Positions 4,536 through 37,118 of a stretch of DNA of 64,000 bases are shown one piece after another. This DNA is from Sulfuricurvum sp. (lineage in GTDB: Bacteria; Campylobacterota; Campylobacteria; Campylobacterales; Sulfurimonadaceae). A model generated the notes under the pieces. The model saw only the letters and a program-made list of their open reading frames with translations. It searched no databases and was not told the DNA's origin. Made by a program: the position numbers and the translations under genes. Each line of letters starts with the position of its first letter. Position 1 is the first letter of the stretch. The stretch spans positions 62,001 through 126,000 of the forward strand of contig JAUYUB010000018.1 in NCBI GenBank assembly GCA_030692765.1. Reading direction: 5' to 3'.

Positions 4536-4958
4536 CTAGCCTTGCATTTTTTTCGCAAGGAAATCTGCTGTCGGTGCATCTACCGAATTAACATGCAAAA
4601 CAATCCATTCAGGTGTTTTGTGTATAAAGTTAATGATTTTTTTGATATCCCCGAACTTCTTCCACTGTCTGACTGTAGAGTCAAGATCCGATAAAAACAT
4701 ATCATGAGCTGTTTTATGCATATCATACGATGGAAAATCGTATTCTTCCATCAAACGTTCTTCGTTGGCAAAATGCTTATGAACATGGTCTATGTATTCA
4801 TCCAGCTTTTTTTCCAGCTCACTCAACTCTACCGTTTTTCTATCAACGCCAAAGGCTAGCTTCTCGATCTCATTTAAAATCTTGATCTCATTCTCATGCG
4901 TCTGCTGCATCTGCTCGACGCTCATATCCTCAACTTGTTCAATGTAAATCAATGCCAT
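4536..4958 (-). CDS. Bacteriohemerythrin, non-heme di-iron oxygen-binding protein
   Basis: 140 residues, a single hemerythrin domain. The di-iron ligand pattern is complete: H21, H62xxxE66, H81xxxH85 and H122xxxxD127, with H58 nearby. Members of this family bind O2 reversibly in microaerobes and may deliver or sense it. It is convergent with dnaJ (5 bp gap). The fused CcsBA gene lies 133 bp downstream on the same strand. The start ATG at 4958 follows an AGGAG-like site (4968-4972 on the minus strand). Confidence 0.92.
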   Translation of the reverse strand: MALIYIEQVEDMSVEQMQQTHENEIKILNEIEKLAFGVDRKTVELSELEKKLDEYIDHVHKHFANEERLMEEYDFPSYDMHKTAHDMFLSDLDSTVRQWKKFGDIKKIINFIHKTPEWIVLHVNSVDAPTADFLAKKMQG

Positions 4959-5051
4959 AAAAACTCCTAATGATTGTTATTTATCTCTTTAATGGGGAAA
5001 GTATAATTTGTTTTTTGTTTTAAAAAATTGATCCAAATCAATTATTGAATC

Positions 5052-5080
5052 CATTCCCACTTCAAAAGTGGGAATGAGCG
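5052..5080 (+). repeat. Divergent orphan copy of the RAYT-linked REP hairpin
   Basis: A perfect 11-bp stem, CATTCCCACTT (5052-5062) and AAGTGGGAATG (5066-5076), closes on a 3-nt loop CAA. The 3' flank GAGCG matches the GAGNG following the three copies near 36 kb, but the 5' flank lacks their GTATG. It lies 12 bases past the stop of the minus-strand ccsBA gene. It has no T-run on either strand, so it is a repeat first and at most a weak terminator or mRNA 3' stabiliser. Confidence 0.85.
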
Positions 5081-5091
5081 AAAAATAAGAA

Positions 5092-8000
5092 TTATTTAGT
5101 AGAGCGTTTTGGATAGGCCATAGCGATGACTATTGCTATAACGGCATACGTCCATGGTACGAAATCAGGCACAGGTACAGGATCGCCTTTTGCATATGAG
5201 TGCATTCCCGCGAGATAATAGTTTACCCCGAAATAGGTCATCAAGACCGATGTAAATGCCAAGAGAGAGATTACGCTGAAGCTGTAATCGTTATAGGCGC
5301 CTTTAATCATACGGAGGTGAATCACCACTGCGTAGACAAGAATCGTTACCAGTGCCCATGTCTCTTTTGGATCCCATCCCCAATAACGTCCCCAGCTCTC
5401 ATTGGCCCATACACCGCCCAAGAAGTTACCGACCGTCAATAGAACCAAACCGATCATTAAACTCATCTCATTGATGCCGTTAAGCTCTTTGATCGCTAGA
5501 TTGAGACGTAATTCATTCGTAGGTCTTTTGAGTATAAAGAGGATCAAAGTGATCATCCCTAACAATGCACCAAGGCCCAAGAAACCGTAACTCGCCGTAA
5601 TCATAGAAACGTGAATACTCAACCAGTACGACTGTAATACAGGTACCAAGTTTGTCACCTGTGGGTCAAGCCAGTTCAGATGCGCTACGAACAATATGAT
5701 ACCAGCCATGATTCCCGTTGCAGCAAGCGTAATCGCGGATTTACGTGAGAAAATAAATCCGGCCAAAACCGTTGCCCATCCGATATAGACCATAGATTCA
5801 TACCCGTTAGACCATGGAGCATGTCCTGCGATGTACCAACGCATCGCCAAACCAGCAGTATGTGCCACAAAAAAGACTACCAATAAAGCGAAGGTTGCTT
5901 TGCTAAATACGTTAAGATTGAAGCTTGGCTTGAGTATTTTCAAGAATGAAAGTAAAAGTAATGCAAAACCGATAATAAAGTACAATGGCCACAACTGCTC
6001 AAAAATATTCCATTTGTTGTACGCAAGCTCTACTTTTACCTTTGTATCGCTTGGATAAACGCTCGCACCTGCAAAATGCTGAAATTTTTCTATCAAAGAC
6101 AATGCTTTGTCAGCCTGCGACCAATCGCCGCTTTTAAGTGCGCCATCAACAGCACTGAAATAACCCACTGCCATCAAACGTACCATTTGGCTGTCTTTTG
6201 GATCCAATGTCTGCAATGCCTCAATAGTTGCATACCATTTGTTATTTTGATCGTTTGGTTTAGGCCACATTTGAATCAATGAACCTGTATAAACCATGAA
6301 TGCGACGTTTACACGTTCATCAATTTGCAATAGGGATTTATCAAATTTATCACGTTTACCCGGAGCTTTTCGTGTTGCTTCCTCGACTAGTTTTCCTAAT
6401 TTATACCCTGTAATCTCACTGGGGACTTCAAAAAACTGTGAAAAAGCGGCAACTTTTGCATCTTCCGGTAGACCTATGAGTTTATTGATCTCTTTGTCTC
6501 CTGTTTTGATCATAGCGATTTCGCGCCATGCATCAGGACGAAGCATCATCCCCATGATAACTTGGTTGGCATTGAGACCTAGCAATGATGTACTGCGGTT
6601 TAGTTTTGACAAAATCTCATGGGATAATGTATCCATAGGCTTCATACGTCCGGCAGAATCTTGAACTATGAGGTGCCCGAATTTATCCGCATGTACTGCA
6701 TCAAAACTCTTGGCGATTGAGATAACCGGATTTTCAGCATCAGCAGCACGAAGATTTGTACTGCTCAACACTAAAATCATAAGAGCAAAAGAGGCAGCAA
6801 GTTTTTTTGCATTTAAGGATTTAAGTTTCTCACTAAGAGCGTTAAATCGACCATTTTTAACGATCAAGACACCAAACAATCCAATAGCTAGCAATAAATA
6901 ACCTACATACGTCACTAAGGTACCTGGATCACGATTTACAGATAATACCGTACCCATTTCATCTTGATCAAATGACGACTGAAAGAAGCGATGCGCTTGA
7001 TAATCAAGGATATGGTTCATATAAATACGATACGGCATTTTTACCCCTGCCGCTTGATCGATCAGAGTGACTTCGCTTGCATACGATGCTGGAGACATAG
7101 AGCCCGGATATCGCTCTAACTGAAAATCATTAAGCTGTATAGCAAAAGGCAATGAACGTTCAATGGATCCATAAGCTACGTCAACCGTGATATCCCCTAA
7201 GTTCACTTTTTTAGCTTCCCCAATTTCTCCAGGTGTCCCTAAGACGATAACCGATTCTTTTTTACCCACAGTGCTAAGTTCAAGCGTTAACGCATCAGCA
7301 CCTTTCACCATTGGCCCTTTTGCCGGCTTAGACACAAGCTTCATACTTCCCTTAGGGATAAAAGAGCGCAATACAAAACCACTTTGCGGTGTCTGGAACA
7401 AGGTACGGCTTAAAAGCTCACTTTTACCTGCTTCTGTAGAGCCTGCTTGTTGCGTATCCATGCTTAGGGTATTGAGTTTCATGTCATGACTCATCATGAC
7501 TTTGTCACCCACAACGCTCAAAGAAACAACCGGTTTTTCAAATTTTTGTCCTGAGCCAAAGTCAATGACGATATCGTTAGCATCAAAAGAATCGCCTTTT
7601 TTCAAGCTCACTTGCTCTCCGCTGCCGCCAGCAGTCACCATCATATTCAAAATTGGCTCACCTTTAGGATCAGCAGCGGCTTCCAGTCTTGCATCTCCCA
7701 TATAGGCGTTTAATTTAACATTAACCTCTTTGCCGTCAAACGCCAATGTACGTTCGAAGCTATTAGACAAACGCTTCGAAAGAAACAATGGTTCCTGAAA
7801 CGTATACGATTTGCCTTCATGGTGGACATTAAACGTCACATAGGGCTCATTACTGACTATGACGTTATTGCTTTCACCCTCACGAATGTGCATCACACCC
7901 TCATACCCAAAGTAACGGGTTACAGCTGCACCCACTAAGATAATTAAAAACGCAACGTGAAATGTAAATACCAATAGTTTTTCTTTTCGCGCCATGTTAA

Positions 8001-8232
8001 ACTTAATAATATTAAGCAATAAGTTCAAAGCAAGCAGACCTAACAATATCTCAAACCATCGTGCATTGTATATATCGGCTTTTGCCGTCATAGTACCGTA
8101 GTCATTCTCAACAAATGTAGCGTAGCCGATAGTGACGGCAAAGATCAACATGAGAACCGCCATGGTCTTCATGGAGCTTAAAATAGAATGGATTTTATTC
8201 ATAAGGAACCTATCGTAAAAATATAGTCGCAA
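5092..8232 (-). CDS. ccsBA: Fused cytochrome c synthase CcsBA (ResB-CcsA)
   Basis: 1046 residues. The N-terminal part is CcsB/ResB-like: early membrane segments at about 15-35, 60-80 and 88-110, then a large periplasmic region (about 110-440). More membrane helices follow, then a second periplasmic stretch (about 500-740) and a CcsA-like multi-helix domain (about 745-1046). The haem-handling WWD-type segment WGRYWGWDPKETWALV is near residue 970. It exports haem and attaches it to CXXCH motifs of periplasmic c-type cytochromes (System II). A single fused chain is typical of Campylobacterota. It is preceded by gdhA on the same strand with a 47-bp gap. Confidence 0.95.
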   Translation of the reverse strand: MRLYFYDRFLMNKIHSILSSMKTMAVLMLIFAVTIGYATFVENDYGTMTAKADIYNARWFEILLGLLALNLLLNIIKFNMARKEKLLVFTFHVAFLIILVGAAVTRYFGYEGVMHIREGESNNVIVSNEPYVTFNVHHEGKSYTFQEPLFLSKRLSNSFERTLAFDGKEVNVKLNAYMGDARLEAAADPKGEPILNMMVTAGGSGEQVSLKKGDSFDANDIVIDFGSGQKFEKPVVSLSVVGDKVMMSHDMKLNTLSMDTQQAGSTEAGKSELLSRTLFQTPQSGFVLRSFIPKGSMKLVSKPAKGPMVKGADALTLELSTVGKKESVIVLGTPGEIGEAKKVNLGDITVDVAYGSIERSLPFAIQLNDFQLERYPGSMSPASYASEVTLIDQAAGVKMPYRIYMNHILDYQAHRFFQSSFDQDEMGTVLSVNRDPGTLVTYVGYLLLAIGLFGVLIVKNGRFNALSEKLKSLNAKKLAASFALMILVLSSTNLRAADAENPVISIAKSFDAVHADKFGHLIVQDSAGRMKPMDTLSHEILSKLNRSTSLLGLNANQVIMGMMLRPDAWREIAMIKTGDKEINKLIGLPEDAKVAAFSQFFEVPSEITGYKLGKLVEEATRKAPGKRDKFDKSLLQIDERVNVAFMVYTGSLIQMWPKPNDQNNKWYATIEALQTLDPKDSQMVRLMAVGYFSAVDGALKSGDWSQADKALSLIEKFQHFAGASVYPSDTKVKVELAYNKWNIFEQLWPLYFIIGFALLLLSFLKILKPSFNLNVFSKATFALLVVFFVAHTAGLAMRWYIAGHAPWSNGYESMVYIGWATVLAGFIFSRKSAITLAATGIMAGIILFVAHLNWLDPQVTNLVPVLQSYWLSIHVSMITASYGFLGLGALLGMITLILFILKRPTNELRLNLAIKELNGINEMSLMIGLVLLTVGNFLGGVWANESWGRYWGWDPKETWALVTILVYAVVIHLRMIKGAYNDYSFSVISLLAFTSVLMTYFGVNYYLAGMHSYAKGDPVPVPDFVPWTYAVIAIVIAMAYPKRSTK

Positions 8233-34724: not shown

Positions 34725-34869
34725 ATAACCACCCCTGAAAGTCTTTTAAGTAGGCGATAATACCACAAAGTATGTGTAGTTCTCGATTAAATGAGAGAGA
34801 TTTTTTTTAATTTTTTATCATCTGTTTTAAAATTGGCTTAAAATCCCTTTTTGAGTACTTTTGTGAATA

Positions 34870-35136
34870 TCATGCTTCCAGTCGAATTTTTCCTGTAGCG
34901 TATTGATGCACTAACGAGGAAATAATCGTTTGATAAGGGATACCAGTTTCCTGAGCTTTATTTTTGATAATAGTCACATCTCCGAGACTGAGACGGATTG
35001 TAATATTTTTTGATTTAGACAAATACTCTTTTGAAGCTTTACGAGCCAATGCAATCTCTTCATCAGCATCTACGCTTCGTACAAGCTCATCATTTTCTAT
35101 AGCGTTTAAAATCGCCATTTCTTCTGTATCAAACAT
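34870..35136 (-). CDS. Antitoxin of a BrnT-like toxin-antitoxin pair (CopG/BrnA-like)
   Basis: 88 residues. An acidic N-terminus (FDTEEMAILNAIENDE) is followed by a ribbon-helix-helix-like C-terminus (KNITIRLSLGDVTIIKNKAQETGIPYQTIISSLVHQYATGK). This is the layout of COG5304-type antitoxins that pair with COG2929/BrnT toxins. It overlaps the toxin by 8 bp and follows it, so the order is toxin first. It probably binds the toxin and represses the operon at the palindrome near 35428. Confidence 0.85.
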   Translation of the reverse strand: MFDTEEMAILNAIENDELVRSVDADEEIALARKASKEYLSKSKNITIRLSLGDVTIIKNKAQETGIPYQTIISSLVHQYATGKIRLEA

Positions 35137-35404
35137 TATTATCTCCTTTGTACATTTTTTTAGCTTTTCGGCTTGGGATGATTGTCTTCAAAAATATCCC
35201 TTCATCATTGCGAATAAATGGAACGAGATAGACATAACCCAATGCTTCAACAACATAGATTTTTTGTTCAGGATAGTTAGCTTGATCTGGATGATCATAG
35301 ACATCCAAAACTTTCCCAGAATCCATGGCTGAAATGATTTCTTCAAATCCAATTCCTCTGTTTTGTTTGAGGAGGTCATTTTTCTCTTTTCCATAGGTAA
35401 TCAA
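35129..35404 (-). CDS. BrnT-family (DUF497) ribonuclease-type toxin
   Basis: 91 residues. The family pattern is visible: KEKNDLLKQNRGIGFEEIISAM, then VLDVYDHPDQANYPEQKIYVVEALGYVYLVPF and the closing IIPSRKAKKMY. BrnT toxins adopt a RelE-like RNase fold. The start is TTG at 35404 with AAAGG about 6 bases upstream. It is the first gene of the pair and sits at the edge of the REP/RAYT island. Activity is inferred from family. Confidence 0.85.
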   Translation of the reverse strand: MITYGKEKNDLLKQNRGIGFEEIISAMDSGKVLDVYDHPDQANYPEQKIYVVEALGYVYLVPFIRNDEGIFLKTIIPSRKAKKMYKGDNNV

Positions 35405-35414
35405 AACAAACCTT

Positions 35415-35441
35415 TATAATATACATACAATGTATTATATA
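35415..35441 (-). promoter_or_regulatory. Candidate operator and promoter of the toxin-antitoxin pair
   Basis: An inverted repeat ATACAT-ACA-ATGTAT (35421-35435) lies 17 bases before the toxin TTG, flanked by further near-symmetric AT bases. A TATAAT on the minus strand (35434-35439) overlaps it, so antitoxin binding would block transcription. Confidence 0.55.
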
Positions 35442-35499
35442 CCAATTCAAATAAAGTAAAGATGATTTTTTATGAATAAAAAATATAGCTAAATAAAAC

Positions 35500-35526
35500 T
35501 TGTTTAAAAATATGTTTAGGTATGAT
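35500..35526 (+). promoter_or_regulatory. Promoter of the disrupted small exported-protein gene
   Basis: TTGTTT (35500-35505) and TATGAT (35521-35526) with a 15-base spacer form a plausible vegetative promoter. An AAAGGC site (35543-35548) and a GTG start at 35556 follow in order. Confidence 0.5.
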
Positions 35527-35555
35527 CTCTGGATTTTTCTACTAAAGGCATTAGT

Positions 35556-35721
35556 GTGATCAAAAAAATACTCTTAGTTTTATTGTATGCATTCCCACTC
35601 AGAGAGTGGGAACGAGAGAATGGGAGTAGCGTATTCAGCCGACATTACCAAAGTCGCAACTCAGTTTGATTCGTTTATGGCCGAGTGGTCGGGAAATAAT
35701 TTTAAAAGAATGGGTGTGTAG
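35556..35721 (+). pseudogene. Small exported-protein gene interrupted by a REP hairpin
   Basis: A GTG start with promoter and Shine-Dalgarno opens a signal-peptide core (MIKKILLVLL). The frame then enters the hairpin repeat and stops at 35667-35669. The hairpin is followed, in a frame shifted by one base, by GVAYSADITK and a short tail ending FKRMGV before TAG at 35719-35721. Removing 34 or 37 bases restores one signal peptide with an AYSA-like cleavage site. So the repeat appears inserted in the signal-peptide coding region. The short remaining mature part (about 26 residues) suggests the 3' end is also lost. I do not recognise the family. Confidence 0.5.
35581..35618 (+). repeat. REP hairpin copy 1 (forward)
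   Basis: CATTCCCACTC (35590-35600), loop AGA, and GAGTGGGAACG (35604-35614) pair with one A-C mismatch. The 5' flank TATTGTATG and the 3' flank AGAG are shared with the other copies. It is in opposite orientation to copy 2. Confidence 0.88.
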
Positions 35722-35724
35722 TTT

Positions 35725-36357
35725 ATGGAAAATAAAAACAAAGTATTTAAATTACCAAAAGATAGAGAAGGTTATATACAAAGTCTGATTTTTCTCGTTG
35801 CAGCAAGTTTGATAATGCTTTATGCAATTATCAATGGATGGAATGGAACTATATTGGATAAATTGGCGGTTTTTTTATTTGGTGTAGTTCCTATAATTGT
35901 TATGCATGACAAAATACATCAATTGATTTCAATTAATTCAATTGAAATCAATGAAGATGAGTTATTAACAAAAAAATATACTTCAGTAGTAGCTTCATCT
36001 AAAATAGCTGATCTTGCAACAAAGATAAGCATAGGAATAGATGGCGCGATTGAAAGGTCATTTTATAATTTATTAAATAATCAGAAACTGTTTACATACA
36101 AAGAAAAAGACATGGGAAGAGAAGAATCAAGTTTATTTTTAGAGCAATTAAGTTTACTTGCACATTGTGATTTGGACTTATTATCTGAATCAACACATGG
36201 GCAGGTTATTCCAGTAAGTAATAATAATAATTCGCAAAAAGCAGTAGAGATGAATGCAGAGTATGTGTATAAAAAAGTGGCTTTTAATCAATGGAGTTGG
36301 ATTTTAATTCCAGCAGTTGTTTTATTAATAATTTTTACTTTAATTGTAATTAAATAG
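35725..36357 (+). CDS. Membrane protein of unknown function between inverted REP hairpins
   Basis: 210 residues. Two N-terminal helices (about 18-38 and 43-60), a hydrophilic middle of about 125 residues, and one C-terminal helix (about 190-209). The codons are strongly A/T-ended, more than in the neighbouring housekeeping genes, which suggests transfer. No known domain is recognised. The ribosome site is weak. It lies between REP copies 1 and 2, which face each other, and upstream of the RAYT gene. Confidence 0.7.
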   Translation: MENKNKVFKLPKDREGYIQSLIFLVAASLIMLYAIINGWNGTILDKLAVFLFGVVPIIVMHDKIHQLISINSIEINEDELLTKKYTSVVASSKIADLATKISIGIDGAIERSFYNLLNNQKLFTYKEKDMGREESSLFLEQLSLLAHCDLDLLSESTHGQVIPVSNNNNSQKAVEMNAEYVYKKVAFNQWSWILIPAVVLLIIFTLIVIK

Positions 36358-36377
36358 GAGACTCTAATATGTCATCA

Positions 36378-36414
36378 CTCGTTCCCACTCTCCTGAGTGG
36401 GAATGCATACAATA
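36378..36414 (-). repeat. REP hairpin copy 2 (reverse)
   Basis: On the minus strand this reads TATTGTATGCATTCCCACTC, loop AGGA, then GAGTGGGAACGAG. The first 20 bases are identical to copy 1 (35581-35600). It lies 21 bases past the stop of the unknown membrane gene and 36 bases before the RAYT start. Confidence 0.9.
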
Positions 36415-36449
36415 TAAGTACTCACATTTAGAAGAGCAAGGAAAACCAG

Positions 36450-36983
36450 ATGGGTAGAAGCAGATATAAAATACACGAACCAACTTTTCCTCATTTTGTT
36501 ACATGTACAGTATTGCATTGGATACCGATTTTTACCCGTATTGAAACGACAGAGATTATCTTCAACTCTCTAAAATATCTTCAAGAACATCATAACTTCA
36601 AACTCTATGCGTATGTTATTCTCGAAAATCATCTGCACATGGTTGCACAAAGTGATGATTTGTCTAAAAGTATGGAGAGTTTTAAAAAATACACTGCTAG
36701 ACAGATCATCGATTTACTCAAATCACGAAACGTCACCACTATCCTCGATCAACTTGCTTTTTATAAAAAAGCACACAAAGAAGACCGAGAGTATCAGTTA
36801 TGGCAAGAGGGGATAGCACCCAAACTTATCCAAAGTGATACCATGATGATAGAAAGAATCAACTATATCCACCTAAATCCGGTTAAACGAGGATATGTTG
36901 ATGAAGCAAAACATTGGCGGTATAGCAGTGCAAGGGATTATGAAGAGAATGTTGGATTGATTGACGTGGAACGCTTTTGGTGA
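36450..36983 (+). CDS. REP-associated tyrosine transposase (RAYT, IS200-like Y1 family)
   Basis: 177 residues, one Y1/HUH transposase domain. The metal-binding HLH is at 61-63 (ENHLHMVAQ) and the candidate nucleophile is Y81 (KKYTARQI). The RAYT-type tail INYIHLNPVKRGYV with HWRYSSARDY is at about 136-163. RAYTs cut and rejoin single-stranded DNA at REP hairpins and are usually single-copy genes not flanked by IS ends. REP copies 2 and 3 lie 36 bp upstream and 13 bp downstream. All motifs look intact. Confidence 0.93.
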   Translation: MGRSRYKIHEPTFPHFVTCTVLHWIPIFTRIETTEIIFNSLKYLQEHHNFKLYAYVILENHLHMVAQSDDLSKSMESFKKYTARQIIDLLKSRNVTTILDQLAFYKKAHKEDREYQLWQEGIAPKLIQSDTMMIERINYIHLNPVKRGYVDEAKHWRYSSARDYEENVGLIDVERFW

Positions 36984-36990
36984 TTTGTAT

Positions 36991-37025
36991 GTATGCATTC
37001 CCACTCATGAGAGTGGGAATGAGAG
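36991..37025 (+). repeat. REP hairpin copy 3 (forward)
   Basis: A perfect 11-bp stem, CATTCCCACTC (36996-37006) and GAGTGGGAATG (37011-37021), with loop ATGA. The 5' flank is GTATG and the 3' flank AGAG. It begins 8 bases past the RAYT stop, before glmU. Confidence 0.92.
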
Positions 37026-37030
37026 GAGGA

Positions 37031-37045
37031 GAGTGGAAACGAGAG
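37031..37045 (+). repeat. Right-arm fragment of a fourth REP
   Basis: GAGTGGAAACGAGAG differs by one base from the right arm and flank of copy 1 (35604-35618). It has no left arm, so it is a partial or decayed copy next to copy 3. Confidence 0.65.
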
Positions 37046-37118
37046 GGAACTACATACCTTATTCTATGAATTATCAAAAATCTGCTAAAATTACAATAAT
37101 TTACTCATAGGAGCCCTT

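Follow-up and report, generated by a model that had tools for sequence, protein, structure and literature searches.

REP-associated tyrosine transposases (RAYTs, or TnpA-REP) and the short palindromes that accompany them are best described in E. coli, whose enzyme belongs to group 2 (subclass 2.2) and goes with REPs bearing a GTAG head; the residues of this enzyme that contact GTAG include E100, H101 and R104 (PMC6006769). Table 1 of the same paper (Quentin et al. 2018, PMC6006769) assigns to TnpA-Y1 subclass 2.6 (Bertels group 5) the motifs NH[LIV]H, WQ and YIH[QN]NP and a length of about 179 aa, and the paper describes this subclass as mostly from Bacteroidetes, with 'atypical secondary structures', and gives a mean identity of 99.4% for the copies of IS-type subclass 1.1 elements within a genome. 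The TIRYTs have GGGGWSAS repeats and a C-terminal HTH extension (PMC3733652), and a guide model with two pairing schemes has been shown for Marinomonas TnpA-REP (PMC8266576). Set against these systems, the locus described here is best explained, with a probability that we put at roughly 0.7, as a REPtron-like unit in which a RAYT HUH/Y1 enzyme with subclass 2.6 motifs has cognate palindromes of its own at each end.

The window, which is the whole stretch of 64,000 nucleotides of Sulfuricurvum sp. DNA that was analysed, encodes a RAYT of 177 aa at 36450-36983 on the forward strand, with H61-L62-H63, W118-Q119 and Y139 in YIHLNP. Three hairpins near the gene share GTATG followed by CATTCCCACTC, a loop of 3-4 nt (AGA, AGGA or ATGA) and GAGTGGGAAYG, exactly as had been predicted from the letters of the window; the full pattern was expected 0.00 times in dinucleotide-preserving shuffles of the window, and the folding of the hairpin DNA gave z scores of -5.0 to -7.5 against shuffles. 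The upstream terminal hairpin, H2 (36378-36410, reverse strand, read on that strand as GTATG-CATTCCCACTC-AGGA-GAGTGGGAACG-AG), is placed and oriented alike in intact relatives. The downstream terminal hairpin, H3 (36991-37023, forward strand, GTATG-CATTCCCACTC-ATGA-GAGTGGGAATG-AG), is without the consensus A.C mismatch and without the CGAG tail, the C of the tail having been lost. H2 and H3 bracket the RAYT ORF as an inverted pair with heads inward. The original prediction had described this inverted bracketing. When the best palindrome on each side of the RAYT was taken without any sequence motif, 33 distinct intact loci showed paired inverted hairpins at the ends. The compact RAYT unit would extend over 36378-37023 on the forward strand, with CTCG...(C/T)GAG ends, boundaries that we infer from the ends common to elements in different contexts.

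The third hairpin, H1 (35585-35616, forward strand, GTATG-CATTCCCACTC-AGA-GAGTGGGAACG-AG), had been grouped with the other two in one unit, a grouping that holds for H2 and H3 only. Since its head is directed away from the RAYT and a 210-aa ORF lies between, H1 is not an end of the RAYT unit, and may be either a solo copy or the end of a lost sister unit. Directly after H1, at 35620-35722, is a short frame, MGVAYSADITKVATQFDSFMAEWSGNNFKRMGV, that resembles the tail of a lost gene. Two degenerate sequences complete the picture: a 3' hairpin half adjoining H3 (37027-37043, forward strand, AGGAGAGTGGAAACGAG; inverted pair I6), and a solo hairpin of the same family at 5047-5078 (forward strand, GAATC-CATTCCCACTT-CAA-AAGTGGGAATG-AG), which has an ACTT stem and is intergenic, lying between ORFs at 4536-4958 and 5092-8232, both on the reverse strand.

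The RAYT is an intact protein of the Y1 type, as had been recognised. The ORF scored 102.6 bits against the NCBIfam model NF047646, 'REP-associated tyrosine transposase' (cut-off 80), which matched all 23 proteins that were aligned, and gave a weak match to Pfam Y1_Tnp. It has the HUH motif, a predicted single catalytic tyrosine and the RAYT-type core that define a RAYT / TnpA-REP. H61, H63, W118, Y139, N143 and P144 are invariant in the 23 aligned proteins, including those of Bacteroidota that are 31% identical. The HLH had been placed correctly at 61-63; Y81, which had been taken for the catalytic tyrosine, is not conserved, and the invariance of Y139 argues that this residue of YIHLNP has that role instead. 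An AlphaFold model, for which the alignment was run without plasmid rows, was moderately good (pLDDT 74; one good model in five), and its best fold match among solved structures was 4ER8, the E. coli TnpA-REP in complex with a REP hairpin; the ISDra2 and IS608 transposases came next. Both motifs and length (NHLH, WQ, 177 aa) appear to fit subclass 2.6 (Bertels group 5), the third motif being YIH[QN]NP in most relatives and YIHLNP in the window protein. In a weak sequence alignment to 4ER8, W118 and Q119 are kept among the GTAG-contacting positions, while P124, K125 and Q128 stand in place of E100, H101 and R104; among the proteins of Campylobacterota, P124 and K125 show almost no variation or none. 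It may be that the changed contact residues go with a changed hairpin head.

The hairpin head was defined from 31 elements among the 33 intact loci. In 56 of their hairpins a common foot could be recognised, with the consensus TATGCA-TTCC-variable stem-RGA loop-GGAA-CGAG. The letters of the foot were T in 51, A in 49, T in 51, G in 48 and C in 53 of the 56, followed by TTCC (49) or CTCC (7), with CGAG after the 3' arm; the letters of TATG and CGAG are each present in about 90%. The GT[AG]G tetranucleotide of classical REPs is absent at the foot of the 56 hairpins, and the family was rejected as a classical GTAG REP. The predicted departure from GTAG therefore stands, but the exact GTATG head does not, as its first G occurs in only 38 of the 56 and the head is better given as TATG(C) or TATA(C), found in about 90%. 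The second foot pair is an A.C mismatch in 42 hairpins, G-C in 11 and A-T in two, and the mismatch is kept in both versions of the foot, TATGCATTCC...GGAACGAG and TATACACTCC...GGAGCGAG. Loops are mostly AGGA, GGGA, TGGA, AGA or GGA. Variation lies in the upper stem, with 19 different upper 5' arms among the 56 hairpins, and the 5' arms at the two ends were identical in 19 of 25 elements against a permutation mean of 1.8 (p = 5e-5).

In order to examine pairing, copies were collected with TGCATTCC-N(6-30)-GGAACGAG, a pattern that demands no pairing between the fixed blocks. Among the fetched loci, viral contigs and plasmids having been left out, it returned 193 distinct copies, among which there were 94 different cores. 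No core fell outside 13-17 nt, where the pattern permits 6-30. Each of five pairs was Watson-Crick in 78-88 of the 92 distinct cores, against 40-66 at most in shuffles. This covariation at five pairs, together with the fixed core length, is strong evidence that the hairpin has been under selection. The palindrome is evidently built of a constant foot (TATGCA, TTCC/GGAA and CGAG), a constant purine loop (RGA) and an upper stem that varies with its pairing preserved. A search of Rfam gave nothing above chance, and a text search of the literature for the hairpin oligonucleotides returned primers and unrelated matches only.

The original prediction expected tens of copies, only in genomes with this RAYT, and named as contrary evidence a genome with only these few copies, or relatives without the RAYT that have just as many. 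Within the host genome the exact head occurs at H1-H3 only, so tens of copies are not found there; a looser pattern gave no further copies, and the total of three good copies and one degenerate copy, which is the first kind of contrary evidence, falls short of the many dispersed extragenic copies of a REP family. The relatives gave a different result. Across the order, the hairpin pattern was present in 47 of 299 genomes and a reversed-pattern control in none. A tally by hand, with RAYTs or remnants counted at 40% identity or more, found both gene and hairpin in 29 genomes, the gene only in six, the hairpin only in 18 and neither in 246 (Fisher p = 3e-22, phylogeny not corrected). Within the genus, the seven of 41 genomes with a RAYT had 2, 3, 6, 7, 9, 18 and 21 hairpin copies (mean 9.4), whereas the 34 congeners without a RAYT had 0-3 (mean 0.9; p = 4e-5), so that the expected abundance in carriers is borne out in the relatives and equal copy numbers were not observed. 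From one to four hairpins without a detectable RAYT were present in 18 genomes of the order and 17 congeners. Up to 20-21 hairpins, mostly extragenic, occur per genome in relatives, and abundance correlates with the cognate RAYT in both order and genus.

The type of stem also follows the resident enzyme. Copies with an ACTC stem number 2-10 where the matching RAYT is present and two or fewer elsewhere (p = 5e-6), and copies with an AAGC stem number 3-6 with the cognate RAYT and two or fewer elsewhere (p = 2e-5). On the protein tree, elements with ACTC stems form one supported clade and those with TTCCA stems another, and none of 200 shuffles had so few changes of stem type. In Mantel tests, stem distance correlated with protein distance (r = 0.25, p = 0.004 for the downstream hairpin; r = 0.44, p = 0.0001 for the upstream), a correlation to which the shared ancestry of neighbours contributes, as would be expected if ends and enzyme are coupled. 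At the level of sequence comparison, enzyme and palindromes have evidently been linked, inherited and changed together. The pairing of a RAYT with cognate hairpins in one unit is in this way supported by co-occurrence, by co-evolution with the protein and by dispersed copies, and more strongly from the relatives than from the host genome.

The family extends beyond the phylum. A plasmid of Salinivibrio kushneri (Gammaproteobacteria) carries a RAYT that is 62% identical, with the same inverted hairpins, and the hairpin is found at 17 places on that replicon as well as on other Salinivibrio and Thiodictyon replicons. No annotated feature lies under the best hairpin match in any plasmid or replicon record among the matches listed, and the hairpin is absent from the Bacteroidota plasmid relatives of the RAYT (31-33% identical). 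No relatives of the RAYT were found in viral contigs; matches to the hairpin pattern there were, by eye, true family members mixed with chance matches, and were left out of the statistics for this reason.

In genomes with the enzyme, the hairpins are evidently dispersed between genes, some of them solitary and others in inverted doublets. Only 27% of copies lie inside ORFs of at least 100 aa, compared to 81% of control positions 500-650 nt away, and 39 of 60 neighbouring pairs are inverted with heads inward, like those around the RAYT. One unit of about 80 nt, starting CTCG and ending CGAG, recurs in unrelated flanks in several genomes of Sulfuricurvum. Doublets that join a foot-A hairpin (CATTCC/GGAACG) to a foot-B hairpin (CACTCC/GGAGCG) were seen at L278, L280, L357, L365, L367, L370 and other loci. 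Short doublets (spacer of 55 nt or less) comprised 20 A/B and 12 A/A, a count in which B/B doublets are nearly invisible because doublets were found mostly through foot A, and in which some pairs are related by descent. The RAYT elements, with 20 A/A, three A/B and two B/B, differ from the short doublets (p = 0.0003), RAYT genes mostly having like ends, unlike the A/B doublets.

These data bear on the possibility that the unit is an ordinary IS200/IS605-like insertion sequence, whose enzyme moves its own gene between the end hairpins and whose dead copies have left the dispersed hairpins behind. RAYT fragments are indeed common beside hairpins, as N-terminal pieces of about 22-30 codons and as C-terminal pieces (G081, G094, G288, G312), some genomes have up to 10 RAYT matches, and G304 has three RAYT copies. 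However, those three copies are divergent (71-86% identical to the query) and not near-identical as for an insertion sequence, the RAYT is single-copy in the host and has YIHxNP in place of the Y---Q of subclass 1.1, and no tnpB accompanies it. Many hairpins and doublets lie without a RAYT remnant within 1.5 kb, as do most copies in G284, G264, G163 and G081, and the short doublets differ in composition from the RAYT elements, all of which makes this explanation unlikely. Several fragments, at G312:C8:124504 and G312:C17:26369 and in G081, G094 and G288, end at roughly the same point, after the first 22-30 codons and beside hairpins, as though derivatives with internal deletions had spread. 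Comparison of one locus in G192, G270 and G294, of two Sulfuricurvum loci and of all fetched loci against each other found no unit that is present at a site in one sequence and missing from that site in another, and no clean empty site. At the locus common to G270 (L030) and G294 (L108), the RAYT of G294 is internally deleted; G294 also has about 200 bp more than G270 directly after the GGAACGAGGGAA end, possibly from an adjacent deletion or insertion.

In the host, fliP and glmU are contiguous in five close congeners, at window position 34790|37078, so the RAYT unit sits in a 2.3-kb island of low GC content (about 31% versus 44%; 34791-37077) that these relatives lack; an exact site empty of just the RAYT unit was not found. 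On the reverse strand at 34870-35404 the island carries CopG-like and BrnT-like ORFs, both below Pfam cut-offs, which are likely a toxin-antitoxin pair. The 210-aa ORF between H1 and H2 (35725-36357, forward strand) resembles a membrane protein, with hydrophobic segments near both ends, and has a weak match to DUF6090, below cut-off. The system probably came into this host with the small foreign island and is at low copy or decaying there. Taken further, this would make the unit a dead relict brought by the fliP-glmU island, with the hairpins as passengers and no current activity, and the absence of the island from the five congeners, the presence of only three good copies, the departure of H3 from consensus and the half-hairpin beside it all agree with such a reading. 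We consider it rather improbable, however, since the window ORF is intact with all predicted catalytic residues, and the closest RAYT relative (94% identical, L345), in another context, is likewise intact with matched hairpins. A role of the hairpins in transcription termination or RNA stability, with a transposase gene beside them by chance, is very improbable. In its favour, they lie outside genes and often close to gene ends, and they are GC-rich while the genome is AT-rich. Against it, no T-run follows them, the unpaired TATG head and CGAG tail are conserved as strongly as the stem, and stem type goes with both the tree and the presence of the RAYT.

For the REPtron-like unit, cleavage and mobilisation by the window RAYT may be proposed, with a mechanism drawn by analogy from E. 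coli TnpA-REP, IS608 and the Stenotrophomonas and Marinomonas TnpA-REP enzymes; a literature search found no cleavage assay on any subclass 2.6 protein. The palindrome would fold when the DNA is single-stranded, and the enzyme would read the TATG head, which is unpaired, together with the A.C mismatch at the foot of the stem and the loop. Y139 would then cut one strand near the CTCG/CGAG ends, and rejoining of the cut strand elsewhere would spread doublets and sometimes the whole unit. A more specific proposal, which we advance only tentatively, is that a RAYT/REP lineage of Campylobacterota and Gammaproteobacteria may read a TATG/TATA head and the A.C mismatch rather than GTAG, that its mobile unit may be the A/B doublet, and that the gene may lie between like ends whose upper stem is swapped with the protein. 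It may be conjectured that, if the head acts as a guide, a TATG head would go with cut sites CA or CT under the two Marinomonas pairing schemes; of these, every CTCG end contains CT.

Tests of how RAYTs choose their palindromes have been limited to groups 2 and 3, in both of which the head is GTAG. The TATG family offers dozens of natural pairs of enzyme and hairpin in which foot and loop are constant and the upper stem is swapped, and in its low-copy genomes gains and losses of hairpins can be counted. What the protein reads, and whether doublets or whole units move, can thus be tested outside the E. coli and Pseudomonas models.

Compared with known systems, CGTC repeats were set aside, as they are not tied to transposases in PMC3733652. 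The TIRYT/TIRtrons (subclass 2.1) also have a RAYT-like gene between inverted repeats other than GTAG, in moderately abundant families (PMC3733652), but a TIRYT was rejected because the window protein, at 177 aa, is without the extension and GGGGWSAS was not seen in the flanking hairpins. IS200/IS605 elements (IS608, ISDra2) share the Y1 HUH enzyme, subterminal hairpins and, by analogy, a guide 5' of the hairpin; here, in contrast, there is no tnpB, the motif is YIHxNP, the two ends are alike and inverted, and copies are few and divergent. E. coli TnpA-REP is alike in its HUH/Y1 fold, in inverted REPs on both sides, in a stem mismatch and an unpaired conserved 5' head, and in dispersed intergenic copies. 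It differs in its GTAG head, in a mismatch that lies mid-stem, where here the head is TATG(C) and the A.C mismatch is at the foot, and in its hundreds of copies, against tens at most. Closest is subclass 2.6 (group 5), which according to PMC6006769 has the motifs, a length of about 179 aa, structures without GT[AG]G at its flanks and copies elsewhere, features also found here; it is mostly from Bacteroidetes with weaker structures, whereas this family is from Campylobacterota and Gammaproteobacteria with strong hairpins. The same paper already states that subclass 2.6 hairpins lack GT[AG]G, so the proposed new type of recognition is only partly supported, with a head other than GTAG retained. 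As RAYTs without GT[AG]G are already known for that subclass, we read the TATG-head family as a probable variant of the RAYT/REP kind, in low copy or relict state in this host, and the comparison as a whole gives good support to a real RAYT/REP-type system with a variant head.
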